A stretch of 64,000 bases of DNA, taken from positions 372,001-436,000 of the forward strand of contig NZ_CP042856.1 of NCBI RefSeq assembly GCF_008001035.1. The letters run 5' to 3'. The notes beneath the pieces were generated by a model. It was not told where the DNA came from. It saw only the letters and a list, made by a program, of their open reading frames with translations, and searched no databases. The stretch is from Salinibacterium sp. dk2585 (GTDB lineage Bacteria; Actinomycetota; Actinomycetes; Actinomycetales; Microbacteriaceae). A program made the translations under genes and the position numbers. This document shows positions 5,505 through 62,016 of this stretch, piece after piece. Numbering within the stretch: the first letter of the stretch is position 1; each line of letters opens with the position of its first letter.

Positions 5505-5576
5505 CAGCGATGCGGTGTTTTCTGCGCGACGCGGCCGTTGTGCGGGCCGCATCGCGCAGAAAACACCGCATCACTG
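5505..5576. repeat. Long near-perfect inverted repeat (28+28 bp core)
   Basis: Arms 5509-5536 and 5545-5572 pair over 28 bp with one mismatch (C/T), around the 8-nt spacer GTTGTGCG; pairing continues outward to 5505/5576 with one more mismatch. The arm begins GATGCGGTGTTTTCTGCGCG. It lies between divergently transcribed genes (purL and arsR), so it is not placed as a terminator of either. It looks like a hairpin-type dispersed repeat. Confidence 0.85.
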
Positions 5577-31222: not shown

Positions 31223-31276
31223 GAGTGGCCAAAGTTTCACCTTCCCCGCGCTCGGTGGGCGAAACTTTGGCCACTC
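31223..31276. repeat. 54-nt hairpin repeat, GAGTGGCC family, copy 1
   Basis: Perfect 16-bp arms GAGTGGCCAAAGTTTC (31223-31238) and GAAACTTTGGCCACTC (31261-31276) around a 22-nt loop. It ends 14 bp beyond the stop codon of the DUF559 gene. Copies 2 and 3 lie on the other side of that gene; copy 4 is at 45152. Confidence 0.93.
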
Positions 31277-31290
31277 GAGCCGGCGACCAA

Positions 31291-32334
31291 TCACGGGCGC
31301 GCGTTTCGGCACGCGAATGCGGCAGCGCGCGCTTCCGGTCCGAGTGGTGGGAGTTGCATCCCCCGCGCACGCAGGAGTCTGTGCACACCGACTACGAACT
31401 CGAATGGGCGCTCGTCCAGATCCTCCGCCGTCACACGTTTGACCCGCCACCCTGCGTCTTCGAAGCGCTCGCGACGCGCGATATCGCTTCGAAACCGCAG
31501 CTTGTCGGTACGGTGGTCGTCGCCTTCGTACTCGAGCACCGTCCTGGCTTGGTCGTACTTGAGGTCTGGCGTTCCGACCTTGCGGCCCGTGGCATCCCTC
31601 ACGACCCCGTTGATGACCGGTTCTGGCAGACCGGACCGCACAAGTAGCATCCGCAACTTCGTCTCGCGCGGAGAATCGACCCCGACGCGGGTGTTGCAGA
31701 GTGCCTCCCGCAGGAGACGGCTGCCCCGGATGCCTGGATTGTGATCGAACGCCGCGCGCAGCTGCTCGATGGTCGCGAGGGGTGGGTTCCGCATCCACTC
31801 GTTGCGGCGTCCAGGAACTTTGATGACGCGACCGGAGACCAGGAAGTCGCTGGCGGCGATGAGTTCGTCGATCGTCAGCTCGGTGGCGAGGTCGAGCCAC
31901 GTCGATACCGGATCGGATGCGGGCACACCGCCGGGGCGCGATATCGTGATGCTTCTCTTCGGGCGATGGCCGACGACGCCAGTAGTCCGGATGCGATTGC
32001 CGGGTGCGCGTGTCGATACGTGGAGGCCAGGTGCGCGTTGCAGCACCAGGGGGAGCGGAATCCCGTGCAGGGCGGCGGCGGTCGAGTGGCTGAAGAAGTC
32101 GCCAGCGCGCAGCCTCGGTGACAGAGCCTGGCATCGCCCGAGCGTCGTGGACGTGTCGAGCGCGACGGAGCGAACCCCATAAAACAGGCGCTGCACGTCG
32201 GAACCGTGCAATCTCGCGTAAGTCAGACCCGCGGCGCGTTGGTCGCTCGGTGTGAACGCCTGGCCAACGAGCCGCGAGGGCAGCGGGACGGGTCGAGGCA
32301 TCCAGAGAGTCTGAGCGGATCTTCGCGCCCGCAC
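31291..32334 (-). CDS. AbiEi/DUF559-type nuclease-like protein, locus 1
   Basis: A 347-aa protein (GTG start; an ATG at 32301 would give 336 aa; neither has a clear ribosome site). The N-terminal part looks like the AbiEi-type winged-helix and substrate-like module found in stand-alone actinobacterial proteins (FTPSDQRAAGLTYARLHGSDVQRLFYGVRSV, GDFFSHSTAAALHGIPLP, VSTWLDLATELTIDELIAASDFLV). The C-terminal part is DUF559/Vsr-like, with GTPDLKYDQARTVLEYEGDDHRTDKLRFRSDIARRERFEDAGW fitting a PD-(D/E)XK nuclease core (PD, ExEGDDHR). No partner toxin gene is adjacent. It is bracketed by 54-nt hairpins, 14 bp after its stop and 101 bp before its start. Activity is inferred. Confidence 0.8.
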   Translation of the reverse strand: MRARRSAQTLWMPRPVPLPSRLVGQAFTPSDQRAAGLTYARLHGSDVQRLFYGVRSVALDTSTTLGRCQALSPRLRAGDFFSHSTAAALHGIPLPLVLQRAPGLHVSTRAPGNRIRTTGVVGHRPKRSITISRPGGVPASDPVSTWLDLATELTIDELIAASDFLVSGRVIKVPGRRNEWMRNPPLATIEQLRAAFDHNPGIRGSRLLREALCNTRVGVDSPRETKLRMLLVRSGLPEPVINGVVRDATGRKVGTPDLKYDQARTVLEYEGDDHRTDKLRFRSDIARRERFEDAGWRVKRVTAEDLDERPFEFVVGVHRLLRARGMQLPPLGPEARAAAFACRNARP

Positions 32335-32435
32335 CGTGTCTGACCGACGCTTCCGTGGAGGCGTGCTGAGCGCTCGCCCTGTGGAGGGGCGTCGACATGA
32401 TCAGTGGCCGCCTGCGCGAATGACGCGGGCTTGGC

Positions 32436-32489
32436 GAGTGGCCAAACTTTCGGCTTCCGCGCGCTCGGTGGGCGAAACTTTGGCCACTC
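32436..32489. repeat. 54-nt hairpin repeat, GAGTGGCC family, copy 2
   Basis: Arms GAGTGGCCAAACTTTC (32436-32451) and GAAACTTTGGCCACTC (32474-32489), one mismatch in 16, loop exactly 22 nt. The loop matches copy 1 at 19 of 22 positions in the same orientation. It lies 101 bp upstream of the DUF559 start. Confidence 0.93.
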
Positions 32490-32528
32490 ACAAGAGAAGG
32501 CACGAGGCACGAGATACCCGCCCTGCGT

Positions 32529-32582
32529 GAGTGGCCAAACTTTTGCCTTCCCCTCCGTGGGTGACCGAATGTTTGGCCACTC
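32529..32582. repeat. 54-nt hairpin repeat, GAGTGGCC family, copy 3
   Basis: Arms GAGTGGCCAAACTTTT (32529-32544) and GAATGTTTGGCCACTC (32567-32582), two mismatches in 16, loop 22 nt (15 of 22 identical to copy 1). Starts 39 bp after copy 2. Confidence 0.92.
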
Positions 32583-32590
32583 GCGGAGGG

Positions 32591-32646
32591 GAGTGGGGGA
32601 GCGGGGGAGTGGGGGAGTGGGGGAGTGGGGGAGTGCGGGAGTGGGG
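32591..32646. repeat. Tandem 8-mer repeat GAGTGGGG, seven units
   Basis: Seven consecutive 8-nt units: GAGTGGGG, GAGCGGGG, three GAGTGGGG, GAGTGCGG, GAGTGGGG. It starts 8 bp after hairpin copy 3. The unit begins with the same GAGTGG as the hairpin arm. Non-coding in context; the 330 bp between the DUF559 start and the small gene at 32668 hold only this repeat and the two hairpins. Confidence 0.9.
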
Positions 32647-32667
32647 GAGCCGCGAGAATCGAGGAAG

Positions 32668-32808
32668 CTACGGCAGCGGGGAGTACACGACCGCGAGATT
32701 CGGCAGGCGGCCGTAGCCGTCTCGCGCGACCGTCTCCAAGGTCGCAATCGCGCTCCAGGCGGCGATCGCCGCGAGGGCCAGCGCAAGGGTGAGGGCGGAT
32801 GCGATCAT
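32668..32808 (-). CDS. 46-aa single-helix membrane peptide
   Basis: MIASALTLALALAAIAAWSAIATLETVARDGYGRLPN plus a short tail ending VVYSPLP. One membrane helix is followed by a VARDGYGRLP motif that I recall from short actinobacterial membrane proteins. The ATG overlaps the stop of the upstream YczE-like gene by 4 bases (ATGA), and AGGAG lies 7 bases upstream, so it is translationally coupled. It is below usual size cut-offs and easily missed. Function unknown. Confidence 0.7.
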   Translation of the reverse strand: MIASALTLALALAAIAAWSAIATLETVARDGYGRLPNLAVVYSPLP

Positions 32809-33548
32809 GACGGCGCTCCTAACGGTGTCGGGCTGGTCGGGGTCGGGTCGATGACCGGCGCCGCGCCGTCGGCGATGCGCTCAGCGAGCACGGCAGTGTT
32901 CGGGATGCCGGCGGTGTCGACGGGGGCCTCGGCGTGAGGTTGCGGGGAGGAGGGCCCCGTGGCATCCGCTCGCCGTTCCGGCGCCGTGAGGAGCGGGATC
33001 GTGACGCCGACCATGGGCCCGATGAGGAGGGCGAAGGCGAGCGTGCCGAAGCCGACGACGCCGCCGAGCAGCCAGCCGATGAGGAGCACGCTGCCCTCGA
33101 GTCCCGTGCGCACCGCCCAGATGGGCCATCCGGTGCGGGCGTGAATGCCGGTCATGAGTCCGTCGCGCGGGCCGGGGCCGAAGCGGGCCCCGATGTAGAG
33201 GCCGGTAGCCAGGGCGAGGAGGCACAGGCCGCCCGCGAAGAGGAGCACCTGCGCCCACAGCTGCTCGGGCGTCGCAATCATGAGCAGGCCGAGGTCGGCG
33301 GAGGGGCCGACGAGCACGGCGTTGAGCACGGTGCCGATGCCGGGCTTCTGGCGGATCGGGATCCAGAGCAGGAGCACGACGCCCGAGATGAGCACCGTCA
33401 CGAGGCCGAATTGGATGCCCGTCTGGCCGGAGGTGCCCTGCGAGAGCACGTCCCACGGCGTCGCCCCGAGGCCGGCCCGCAGCATCATCGCGATGGCGAT
33501 GCCGTAGAAGAAGAGGCCGAGGAGCAGCTGGACAATGCGGCGAGTCAT
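32805..33548 (-). CDS. YczE-like membrane protein, copy 1
   Basis: A 247-aa integral membrane protein of the YczE/YitT-like group: RRIVQLLLGLFFYGIAIAMMLRAGLGATPWDVLSQG, LVTVLISGVVLLLWIPIRQKPGIGTVLNAVLVGP and GLYIGARFGPGPRDGLMTGIHARTGWPIWAVRTGLEG are family marks. Five helices are followed by a cytosolic tail of about 60 residues rich in Pro and Ala. The ATG at 33548 is the family start. It is divergent from a MocR regulator; MocR genes paired with yczE are known, so it is probably the regulated partner. A second copy lies on the other side of the regulator. Confidence 0.87.
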   Translation of the reverse strand: MTRRIVQLLLGLFFYGIAIAMMLRAGLGATPWDVLSQGTSGQTGIQFGLVTVLISGVVLLLWIPIRQKPGIGTVLNAVLVGPSADLGLLMIATPEQLWAQVLLFAGGLCLLALATGLYIGARFGPGPRDGLMTGIHARTGWPIWAVRTGLEGSVLLIGWLLGGVVGFGTLAFALLIGPMVGVTIPLLTAPERRADATGPSSPQPHAEAPVDTAGIPNTAVLAERIADGAAPVIDPTPTSPTPLGAPS

Positions 33549-45151: not shown

Positions 45152-45205
45152 GAGTGGCCAGAGTTTCGGGATCCATGGCTCCCTTGGCGCAAAGTTTGGC
45201 CACTC
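45152..45205. repeat. 54-nt hairpin repeat, GAGTGGCC family, copy 4 (solo)
   Basis: Arms GAGTGGCCAGAGTTTC (45152-45167) and CAAAGTTTGGCCACTC (45190-45205), three mismatches in 16, loop 22 nt with unrelated sequence. The total length is exactly 54 nt as in copies 1-3, but no DUF559 gene is nearby. It lies between divergent genes. Confidence 0.9.
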
Positions 45206-49938: not shown

Positions 49939-50205
49939 CTAGTGGTCGTGGGTGACTCCACCGATGAGTATTCCCGGGTCGGTGCGCAACGCGTAAGCGA
50001 GTCGGATGAGCACCTTGAACTCGATGTCGACGAGGCCCGCTTCGATCTGTTGCAGCTGCTCGGGGCTGAGCCCACTCGCGTCCGCGACATCCGTTCTCGT
50101 CAGGCGGTCGCGGGCACGGATGTCGCGGATTCGCTCGCCCAGCGTCTGGGCAGCGGCGGCCGGCGCGCTTCGTTGCGGTGTTCCGCGGTGTGGGGCGGGG
50201 GTCAC
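49939..50205 (-). CDS. XRE-family regulator, copy 2
   Basis: An 88-aa protein: LGERIRDIRARDRLTRTDVADASGLSPEQLQQIEAGLVDIEFKVLIRLAYALRTDPGILIGGVTHDH, again an HTH_3 domain with little else. GTG start. It is divergent from the large LPXTG gene at 50380 and lies 23 bp upstream of XRE copy 1 on the same strand; the pair may regulate the divergent surface-protein gene (inference from position). Confidence 0.83.
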   Translation of the reverse strand: MTPAPHRGTPQRSAPAAAAQTLGERIRDIRARDRLTRTDVADASGLSPEQLQQIEAGLVDIEFKVLIRLAYALRTDPGILIGGVTHDH

Positions 50206-56834: not shown

Positions 56835-56896
56835 GCGCGCACATTTGTGCGGCACGCGCCTGTTCAGACATGCGCGCCGCGCACAAAGGTGCGCGC
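56835..56896. repeat. 62-nt hairpin repeat, GCGCGCAC family, copy A
   Basis: Arms GCGCGCACATTTGTGCG (56835-56851) and CGCACAAAGGTGCGCGC (56880-56896), one mismatch in 17, loop 28 nt. It ends 49 bp beyond the stop of the second DUF559 gene. Confidence 0.92.
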
Positions 56897-56945
56897 CCCG
56901 CAAAAACCGTTGAGCCCCGCACCCAGAACACCGCCCGCGGCCCTG

Positions 56946-57908
56946 TCACCCCGGTAGCAGGCCGTGCTTGCGCATCTTGGCGGCGAAGCGGTGCCGGGAG
57001 ATCGCGGTGTTCCAGTCCCACCGCATGAATCCGCTCGTCACGGCACGCATCCGGTCCTCGCGTTGCTTCTCTTCCCACAGAACTTGCTCGGCGCTCTTGC
57101 CCGAGGGCGACGCCTCCCGGCCGGCGTACTTCGTTCTCCCGTCGCTTTCGCCGATGAGGTCGAGGTGCTGCCAATAGAAGTCGGCATCGCCGATGTGTCC
57201 GTCTTCGTCGGAGAAGGCCACTTGGAGTTCTGGCTTGGGGACACCAAGCAGATGTATCTGCACTCGGCTGACTGATTCGAGCGCCGAGCCGCTGAGCCCG
57301 TCGCCGAACTCGATTGCCCTGAATGCCTTTGCTGACCCGGGGTACGGCAGCATCCTGTTGAGGAGGACCCGAAGCTCGTCTTTGGTGGTGTGTGCGCGGC
57401 CGAGGTTCCAGCGGGTCTCGCCGCTGCGTGGCATCCGGAGACCACTGTCGATCATGGCGACGGCGCGCATGAAGGTTGACGTGCAGGCGACATCCACGAT
57501 TGTGCGCGCGAGCGACGTCACTCTGACCCCGTCGATCACGACAGCATGCGGGTCGTCTCCGAGGCAGTGACGGTGGATGTCCCCGTGTGAGCGCCCGCCG
57601 GTGTCGCGTGGCGCCAGCACGTGCACTCTGGGCGGCCACTCGCCGACGCACGGCAGGCCCCACATGTTCGCGGCCGAGTCGTGCGAGAACACGAGTGGGC
57701 GCCGAGCGGATGCCGCAGCCGCGAGTGTTCGCTGTCGGTACAGCTCATCGTCGCTCGCCCCTTCGCGGTCTTCCCGTGCGACGTAGGCGCCGGGTCGCAC
57801 GCGCACATACGCACCCGATCGGATTCCGCTGCGCAGCAGGTTCGCGGAGCCGGTCGCGAGCGCGTTGCGGTTGAGCATGATGCTCGGGATGCTTCGGCCT
57901 GAGTCCAT
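56946..57908 (-). CDS. AbiEi/DUF559-type nuclease-like protein, locus 2
   Basis: A 320-aa protein. The N-terminal part resembles AbiEi-type stand-alone proteins (MLNRNALATGSANLLRSGIRSGAYVRVRPGAYVARE, PLVFSHDSAANMWGLP, RVTSLARTIVDVACTSTFMRAVAMIDSGLR). The C-terminal part is DUF559/Vsr-like, with IGDADFYWQHLDLIGESDGRTKYAG giving a D...E-x-D-G-x-x-K nuclease pattern and WEEKQREDRMRAVTSGFMRWDWNT after it. Start at the ATG 57908, without a clear ribosome site. Bracketed by 62-nt hairpins 49 bp after the stop and 91 bp before the start. The ORF stays open upstream to 58007, through the copy B region. Similar in layout to the gene at 31291 but well diverged. Confidence 0.8.
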   Translation of the reverse strand: MDSGRSIPSIMLNRNALATGSANLLRSGIRSGAYVRVRPGAYVAREDREGASDDELYRQRTLAAAASARRPLVFSHDSAANMWGLPCVGEWPPRVHVLAPRDTGGRSHGDIHRHCLGDDPHAVVIDGVRVTSLARTIVDVACTSTFMRAVAMIDSGLRMPRSGETRWNLGRAHTTKDELRVLLNRMLPYPGSAKAFRAIEFGDGLSGSALESVSRVQIHLLGVPKPELQVAFSDEDGHIGDADFYWQHLDLIGESDGRTKYAGREASPSGKSAEQVLWEEKQREDRMRAVTSGFMRWDWNTAISRHRFAAKMRKHGLLPG

Positions 57909-57999
57909 GAGGTGAGTGTTGCGTTCGGGTCGCGCGCGGGGGTGGGGGAAGCGGTCGTCCTGTGGAGCCTGGCCGCGTCGGCGGCGCTGTGGAGTAGGC

Positions 58000-58061
58000 G
58001 CGCGCACTTCTGTGCGCCGCGCGCACGCCTAAACTTCAGCGTCGCGCACAGAAATGCGCGC
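58000..58061. repeat. 62-nt hairpin repeat, GCGCGCAC family, copy B
   Basis: Arms GCGCGCACTTCTGTGCG (58000-58016) and CGCACAGAAATGCGCGC (58045-58061), one mismatch in 17, loop 28 nt; pairing extends one base on each side. The loop resembles the reverse complement of the copy A loop (18 of 28), so the two copies are inverted around the gene. Confidence 0.92.
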
Positions 58062-58141
58062 GGCGGGGCCTCGGGCCGACTCGCGGCGCGGTGGGGTGCC
58101 CGACTGGACTCCGCAACATCGGCCCCCCGTAGGATCGACCC

Positions 58142-61391: not shown

Positions 61392-61964
61392 ATGGAGACC
61401 AAGGGACGCATCCTCTTCGACACCGCCACGACGATCAACGGCTTCATCGCCGATGAGCAGAACTCGCTCGACTGGCTCTTCGCGGTGGAGGGCGGGGACC
61501 ACCCGGATGAGGGGCTCTTCCCCTCCGGTGCCGCTGTGCTGGTGGAGGGCTCGACCACGTACGAGTGGATCCTGAGCCACGATGCAGTGATCGAGCATCC
61601 GGAGAAGTGGGCCGAATTCCACGGTGATCGGCCCGTCTACGTCATGACGACGCGGGAGTTGCCCGTGCCAGAGGGGGCTGACGTGCGATTCCGCTCGGGT
61701 GCGATCACGGAGCTGCTGCCGGAGCTGCTGGGGATCGCAGCGGGCGGCGACATCTGGGTCGTCGGAGGCGGCGACCTTGCGGGGCAGTTCCTCGACGCTG
61801 GAGTGCTCGACGAGATCGCGCTCTCGGTCGCACCAGTCGCGCTCACGGGCGGGGCGCCGGTGTTCCCCCGCCGTATCGAGTCCGACCGGCTGCGCCTCAC
61901 GAGCGCCGAGAAGTACGGCCAGTTCGCGCGCCTCGTCTACAAGGTCTCCCCGCGGGTTGAGTAG
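61392..61964 (+). CDS. Dihydrofolate-reductase-like protein (RibD C-terminal fold)
   Basis: A 190-aa protein of the RibD_C/DHFR-like family: GRILFDTATTINGFIADEQNSLDWLF, VEGSTTYEWIL, PVYVMTTRELPVP, GDIWVVGGGDLAGQFLDAGVLDEIALSVAPVALTGGAPVFP. Likely NADPH-dependent; substrate unknown. The last codons and stop (SPRVE, TAG) are provided by the GGTTGAGTAG repeat that follows. TAACGT ends 6 bases before the ATG. Confidence 0.88.
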   Translation: METKGRILFDTATTINGFIADEQNSLDWLFAVEGGDHPDEGLFPSGAAVLVEGSTTYEWILSHDAVIEHPEKWAEFHGDRPVYVMTTRELPVPEGADVRFRSGAITELLPELLGIAAGGDIWVVGGGDLAGQFLDAGVLDEIALSVAPVALTGGAPVFPRRIESDRLRLTSAEKYGQFARLVYKVSPRVE

Positions 61965-62016
61965 CGCGAATCGCTTGGGAGCAATCGCGCCAGCGATTGC
62001 GCGCTACTCAACCCGC
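61951..62016. repeat. GGTTGAGTAGCGCG inverted repeat overlapping a stop codon
   Basis: GCGGGTTGAGTAGCGCG-AATCGCT (from 61952) pairs with AGCGATT-GCGCGCTACTCAACCCGC (to 62016), a stem of about 24 bp with one bulged base. It is the most palindromic member of the GGTTGAGTA family and contains the TAG stop of the DHFR-like gene; it may terminate transcription. Confidence 0.85.

Follow-up and report, generated by a model that had tools for sequence, protein, structure and literature searches.

A bracketed gene and its dyads

The window analysed here, a stretch of 64,000 nucleotides from Salinibacterium sp. dk2585 (contig NZ_CP042856.1, positions 372,001–436,000), contains a gene enclosed by copies of one palindromic sequence, here called a dyad. 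The gene (31291–32301, minus strand) encodes a protein whose homologues, alignment, AF2 model and VIA-align matches point to an AbiEi-like DNA-binding module joined to a nuclease of the Vsr/I-Bth0305I (EDxHD) fold. One dyad lies downstream of the gene at 31223–31276 (copy 1) and two lie upstream, at 32436–32489 – a candidate operator – and at 32529–32582. Gene and dyads together are referred to as the first unit. An earlier note, made by a model from the letters of the window, had reported these three palindromes, and their positions and common length of 54 bp hold. It had given all of them perfect 16-nt arms, which is true of copy 1 only; in the arms of copy 2 there is one mismatch, and in those of copy 3 there are two. 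The loops of copies 1 and 2, re-read from the sequence, agree at 19 of 22 positions, as the note had counted. Its distances of 14, 101 and 194 bp apply to a GTG start at 32334. The ATG at 32301 is the position kept among homologues in an alignment of 63 family members; it gives a protein of 336 amino acids and upstream gaps of 134 and 227 bp. The half-site AGTGGCCAAANTTT occurs nine times in the window at two or fewer mismatches (0.17 expected), and a control pattern for it has no occurrence across the host genome. A codon-usage gene finder made for this analysis missed the gene, which is accepted as real on the strength of an open frame that many homologues conserve.

The AF2 model of the protein has a pLDDT of 95.3. 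By VIA-align, the N-terminal part (about residues 1–207) matches AbiEi antitoxin, and the C-terminal domain (about residues 208–315) is best matched by the Vsr/I-Bth0305I (EDxHD) fold. These assignments rest on VIA-align, which re-aligned candidates supplied by Foldseek; by itself, Foldseek returned no hit with an E of 0.001 or lower. Invariant E, D, H and D residues are present in the 63-member alignment, and were assigned to the EDxHD set by their order in the alignment, not by superposition. On this predicted fold, the protein is an AbiEi-like module joined to a Vsr/I-Bth0305I-like nuclease fold. The AbiEi part of the earlier description stands, while the PD-(D/E)XK core it proposed gives way to the EDxHD fold as the better fit. 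At E 0.01 the first-unit protein itself has no Pfam match (MTES_1575 reaches 0.016); the aligned family members match both DUF559 (43 of 63) and REase_MTES_1575 (56 of 63), and the available excerpts of two papers on these families (PMC3710099, PMC12907096) do not mention repeats. Matches to the first-unit protein at E 1e-5 were found in 6 of 72,556 plasmid records and 1 of 50,697 phage records. The protein family looks chromosomal, like RAYT genes.

Dyads are nearly constant in length within each family of copies. In six families, measured on the copies in fetched stretches and not on all dispersal places, the length is 60 nt in 17 of 18 copies (one is 41), 62 in 11 of 11, 57 in 8 of 9, 54 in 6 of 6, 57 in 6 of 6 and 56 in 8 of 10; in genome G429, a member of another genus considered below, 43 of 46 cores are 59 nt. 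The outer half-sites (about 15–22 nt) are conserved and the centre is variable, and the same half-sites are conserved in solo copies, including those of G429. Arm pairing at variable positions was compared with pairing after the 3' halves had been dealt anew, and its excess was not significant in families F10 (P 0.82), F11 (0.24), F8 (0.42), F5 (0.45) and F12 (0.78), nor in G429 (0.18). A hairpin as the selected fold became the less favoured reading, with no significant covariation in six of seven families (F6 is the exception) or in G429, though the dyads may still fold. Because length is near-fixed and the arms covary little, when a selected hairpin should compensate more widely, the pattern suggests a duplex site for a dimer, with a spacer. 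The palindromes in the earlier note are real, and duplex dyads of fixed spacing are likelier than the hairpins it took them for.

Recurrence of gene-dyad units

The earlier note had held that the same design, with different sequences, recurs near 56835–58061, and dyads are indeed present there around a gene of the family. This second unit consists of an open reading frame for a divergent family member (56946–58007, minus strand; profile E 3e-20), a downstream dyad of 62 bp at 56835–56896 that is unrelated in sequence to that of the first unit, and an upstream dyad of 64 bp at 57999–58062 (62-bp core 58000–58061). The alignment of its protein stops short of the positions of H263 and D273, covering the nuclease residues only in part.

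Homologues of the first-unit protein were found at E 1e-5 in at least 209 of 299 genomes of the family Microbacteriaceae; this and the other homologue and profile surveys below score first-look candidates only. Flanks were compared in a set of 76 Microbacteriaceae loci (L033–L035, L053–L056 and L069–L137; 75 are distinct, L053 and L071 being the same contig). L069–L137 are the top of the homologue ranking in order, with one contig-end row skipped, and L056 was chosen for its dyads. In these loci 87 palindromes of 44–82 nt lie in 40.8 kb of proximal flanks, compared to 3 in the 125.4 kb beyond 400 bp, and dinucleotide shuffles of the proximal flanks yielded 0.25 on average and never more than 1 over 20 rounds. 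With a strict finder, 60 loci have a dyad on at least one side, 46 upstream and 38 downstream, and the downstream dyads are at or just past the stop codon.

The dyads of a unit match each other. In a local comparison of left with right flanks, 53 of the 75 units scored 16 or more, against 1.4% of 3000 cross pairs, and 46 of the 75 exceeded the 99th percentile of cross-pair scores. Between units the sequences vary, even among the paralogues of the host genome (G000) – the second unit and the units at 2767857 and 791047 each have their own. As a specificity control, 558 kb of G000 and its sister genome G195 were searched for matching palindrome pairs 0.5–2.5 kb apart. Two were found, both around family genes; the control misses the first unit because the finder pairs arms of neighbouring copies there.

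Units also occur outside Microbacteriaceae. A profile of the 63 proteins matches at 1e-10 in at least 279 of 394 genomes of the class, which does not imply full-length relatives. Ten of 15 loci from outside the family are bracketed on both sides, three on one and two on neither, and 8 of the 15 come from one family. In locus L238 (G615) the unit has two dyads on one flank and three on the opposite one, all five of them similar. A separate family of 69–71-nt palindromes with GTGAGGGGTC ends was seen in two genomes of one genus (L057, 1350–1420; L058, 893–961).

Dispersal and placement of dyads and units

The dyad of the first unit is present in 19 copies in the 2.84-Mb host genome, including those at 518350 and 2776864, and only three of the 19 are at the gene. 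Seventeen copies are 54 nt long and two are 55. One solo copy lies in the window at 45152–45205 and was absent from the earlier note. Of the 14 solo sites whose neighbours were read, with gene contexts taken from the gene finder made for this analysis, 8 are between convergent genes (background 22%, P 0.005). Such a position would be frequent if the palindromes ended transcription or were under selection as RNA hairpins at the ends of genes, and the weak arm covariation in F6 points the same way. This explanation is nevertheless very improbable, given that arm complementarity shows no significant excess in the other six families or in G429, that copies lie upstream of the gene, and that the window has no Rfam match.

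In the sister genome G195, whose flanks are 94% identical, the first unit is missing: the slot holds 1494 bp in G000 and 126 bp in G195. Solo dyads at 69531, 87900, 689750 and 2776864 (decayed) are common to the two genomes, those at 245739, 2249798, 2429745 and 2777028 are absent from G195, and at 185418 and 2699940 G195 has other sequence instead. In G143 and G241, a homologue of 53–56% identity occupies a different slot nearby. The syntenic slot of another relative, G080 (C9:1487344–1488287), holds about 0.9 kb of other sequence in place of the unit. Slots L188 and L194 likewise have a dyad or unit in G000 and other sequence, sometimes with other palindromes, in the sister genome.

Dispersal in genomes that hold the gene was examined with twelve dyads, each taken from a different unit, in a search of 12 genomes. 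Every one of these families is dispersed in its own genome. Among the matches listed, G136 has 20 places, G028 11, G050 and G026 6 each, G143 4, G271 and G068 3 each and G195 1; G129 has 11 places of its own family and 2 of another, which enclose a frameshifted relative, G182 4 of its own and 1 each of two sister-species families, G063 3 plus 2, and G000 3 of one searched family and 6 of the other. None of the matches listed crosses between genera. In locus L286 (G129), a bracketed family gene was found as two tblastn pieces in different frames, with the dyads still adjacent.

A further genus was surveyed in 12 genomes, where strict dyad counts among the matches listed run from 1 to 52 and control counts are 0. 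Nine of these genomes have a close homologue (67% or more). Dyad counts in genomes with one include 10 in G339, 33 in G357, 40 in G438 and 8 each in G409, G483 and G505. G373 has 13 dyads and the homologous gene in pieces, and G447 has 4 dyads and the gene as a single open frame containing a gap of some 28 residues.

Units are found at unrelated sites. An all-against-all comparison of 117 non-redundant loci gave 34 syntenic pairs and 139 pairs with no homology outside the unit. With an identity of at least 70%, homology stops within 10 nt of the outer edge of a dyad at 28 of 43 informative left ends and 16 of 39 right ends, counted over 25 loci in non-independent pairs with the distance taken as the smallest to any dyad of either locus. 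Edge positions placed at random in 500 draws gave means of 6.2 (left) and 4.8 (right), with maxima of 20 and 16. The left ends are clear of chance, and the right ends only just.

Other solo palindromes of 49–65 nt lie in the window at 5509–5572, 50081–50129 and 61952–62016, the last being of the GTTGAGTAGC type; these may be members of further dyad families. A tandem array of 8-bp units (GGGGAGTG) at 32580–32657 adjoins the third dyad of the first unit.

A proposed working for the unit

Which part of the protein might read the dyad was approached through pairs of units. Genome G357 has two units 1.07 Mb apart. When their proteins are compared in blocks of twenty columns, identity is 68, 55 and 80% in the first three blocks and reaches 100% in 10 of the 12 that start at column 61; the dyads of the two units differ at the inner half-sites. 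An alternative origin for this pair is gene conversion of the protein body between older paralogues. Among 10 units of one genus, half-site similarity correlated with protein similarity over columns 1–50 (rho 0.56, Mantel P 0.012), less so over columns 51–100 (rho 0.35, P 0.071) and not significantly over columns 101–200 (rho 0.15, P 0.27) or 201–300 (rho 0.21, P 0.18); the ten include L318, whose arm frame was mis-set. These comparisons point to the winged helix as the dyad reader. Covariation of dyad with protein, which the earlier note had proposed as a test, is thus present in this genus and weak over a wider set of 48 units.

The unit resembles a REPtron in that one gene sits between cognate palindromes of which the same genome has scattered copies, and in having several repeat families, each with its own gene, with repeats remaining after suspected gene loss. 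Loss of the gene with left-over repeats is likewise suspected in repetitive extragenic palindrome (REP) systems in the available part of PMC6006769, and REPtron genes behave like housekeeping rather than transposase genes according to excerpts of that paper and of PMC8266576. The differences are that the protein here combines an AbiEi with a Vsr-like fold where REPtrons encode a Y1 HUH nuclease (a genome-wide Y1 search was not made), and that the dyads are longer, near-fixed in length and give few signs of selection for folding. The GT[AG]G foot of REPtrons was found within 6 nt outside only 2 of 142 dyad ends in the seven families. The unit looks to work like a REPtron without being one. The REPtron-like arrangement in the earlier note holds for anatomy, matching palindromes and dispersal, and the protein may bind, nick or spread the palindromes as it went on to suggest.

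Two other known systems share parts of the unit. Like AbiE type IV toxin-antitoxin systems, it has an AbiEi fold in the protein and paired inverted repeats upstream, with 44–82-nt palindromes there in 46 of 76 loci. It differs from the AbiEi and Rv2827c antitoxins in its fused nuclease domain, downstream dyad and dispersed copies, and no AbiEii-like toxin was found among the six neighbours of the first-unit gene (by Pfam in this window; a genome-wide AbiEii search was not made). The neighbours match DUF4097, MerR/TipAS, PadR, 4HBT and Rce1-like families, and 32805–33548 has no match. The nuclease fold and the E/D/H/D residues are shared with Vsr and with the EDxHD homing endonuclease I-Bth0305I, which, according to part of a review, has a dimeric target of about 60 bp. 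Unlike in the homing endonuclease, no intron was seen. The dyads on either side of the gene are intact, and if the dyad is the site, that site would be uninterrupted. No link between palindromes and DUF559/AbiEi genes was found in the literature searched, which was open-licence full text only and leaves novelty unproven.

The explanation preferred here, with a probability of about 0.6, is a chromosomal nuclease-dyad unit that works in the manner of a REPtron but shares none of its ancestry in its parts. The AbiEi-type winged-helix N-terminus would recognise, as a dimer, two inverted half-sites of about 20 bp at a set distance (dyads of about 44–78 bp), and the dyad upstream of the gene would probably double as an operator for autoregulation, in the way known from AbiEi antitoxins. 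The EDxHD-type nuclease fused to it would then nick or cut in or beside the dyad, to a limited extent and in some permissive state. Repair or recombination would carry copies of dyads to new intergenic positions and, less often, copies of the complete dyad-gene-dyad unit. Limited nicking and copying by repair are the most tentative of these steps. The odds seem slightly better than even that such units make up a large, undescribed actinobacterial class of mobile or repeat-spreading elements. In its members an AbiEi-type winged helix would read a private dyad of fixed spacing that the joined EDxHD nuclease processes, dyads and units would colonise intergenic sites, and specificity would shift by concerted change of the first 60 or so residues and both dyads while the body stays constant.

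A self-regulating AbiEi-type DNA-binding protein would account for part of the same evidence. The flanking dyads would be its operators, the dispersed dyads a host regulon or boundary sites, and the nuclease would act elsewhere, in repair or defence. AbiEi geometry, near-fixed spacing with conserved half-sites and little covariation, the conservation of half-sites in solo copies (G429 included) and the scarcity of plasmid and phage matches all agree with this. It fits poorly with the 38 of 76 loci where a dyad lies downstream, right at the stop codon or shortly beyond it, with the solo sites that differ between sister species and with units at unrelated sites whose homology often ends at dyads. 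The 8 of 14 solo sites between convergent genes would also be poor operator positions. This alternative is unlikely, with a modest chance of being right.

A number of observations weigh against the preferred nuclease-dyad explanation. With the strict finder, both dyads are present in only 24 of the 76 units and 16 have none. The correlation of protein with dyad over 48 Microbacteriaceae units is weak (rho 0.18 for the N-part, 0.12 for the C-part), which may reflect how little half-sites have in common once identity falls under about 60%. F6 shows arm covariation (P 0.0145) and F3 is borderline (P 0.064). Of the homology ends, 15 of 43 on the left and 23 of 39 on the right lie more than 10 nt from a dyad edge, in comparisons that are not independent. 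The slot of the first unit in G195 (C8:1177186–1177311) is filled by unrelated sequence with a different palindrome. At the solo sites, comparison of G000 with G195 showed neither a clean 54-bp insertion nor a target duplication, tens of bp of extra sequence are missing alongside the dyads missing from G195, and 6 of the 16 sites are not comparable. The empty site of the unit thus carries filler, and the solo sites show no clear duplication of the kind that an insertion sequence would leave. Cleavage would also have to be limited, because a freely active double-strand nuclease and intact dyads together would harm the genome.

Further points of this kind come from dyads that do not follow the gene. 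In G466 a close gene is accompanied by a single strict dyad, and G419 and G523 have 3 and 4 dyads and homologues of merely 44% and 41%. G195 has 5 dyads and, among the matches listed, a best homologue of 41%. The 52 dyads of G429 are accompanied by no homologue at 1e-30, only by distant profile matches (best 1.6e-19), and tblastn found no remnant of the gene in 42 loci holding 46 of them. Dyads can persist without a close gene, and a distant family member may read those of G429. Set against the refuting condition of the earlier note, a copy number independent of the presence of the gene, the outcome is that copy number is not strictly tied to the gene; a close gene as a requirement for persistence is contradicted by G429 and G195. 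These two genomes would be explained if other machinery, such as a Y1/RAYT protein, an insertion-sequence transposase or repeat recombination, spread the palindromes, and AbiEi-nuclease genes merely lay between them. This has only a small chance of being correct: the dyad is unit-specific and alike on the two flanks, paralogues of a single genome differ in their dyads, both bracketed genes in 558 kb belong to the family, and the GT[AG]G foot is all but missing from the dyad ends.

If the nuclease-dyad explanation is true, many 'DUF559/AbiEi' genes of actinobacteria, which are common but little studied, would gain a testable role, and part of the anonymous intergenic palindromes of actinobacteria would be explained. 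Every unit would pair a reader domain with its candidate site, and the units together would lend themselves to working out how winged helices recognise DNA; the domain joined to the reader could be a nuclease with a long target. Dispersal of the REP kind would then seem to have arisen a second time, from unrelated parts.
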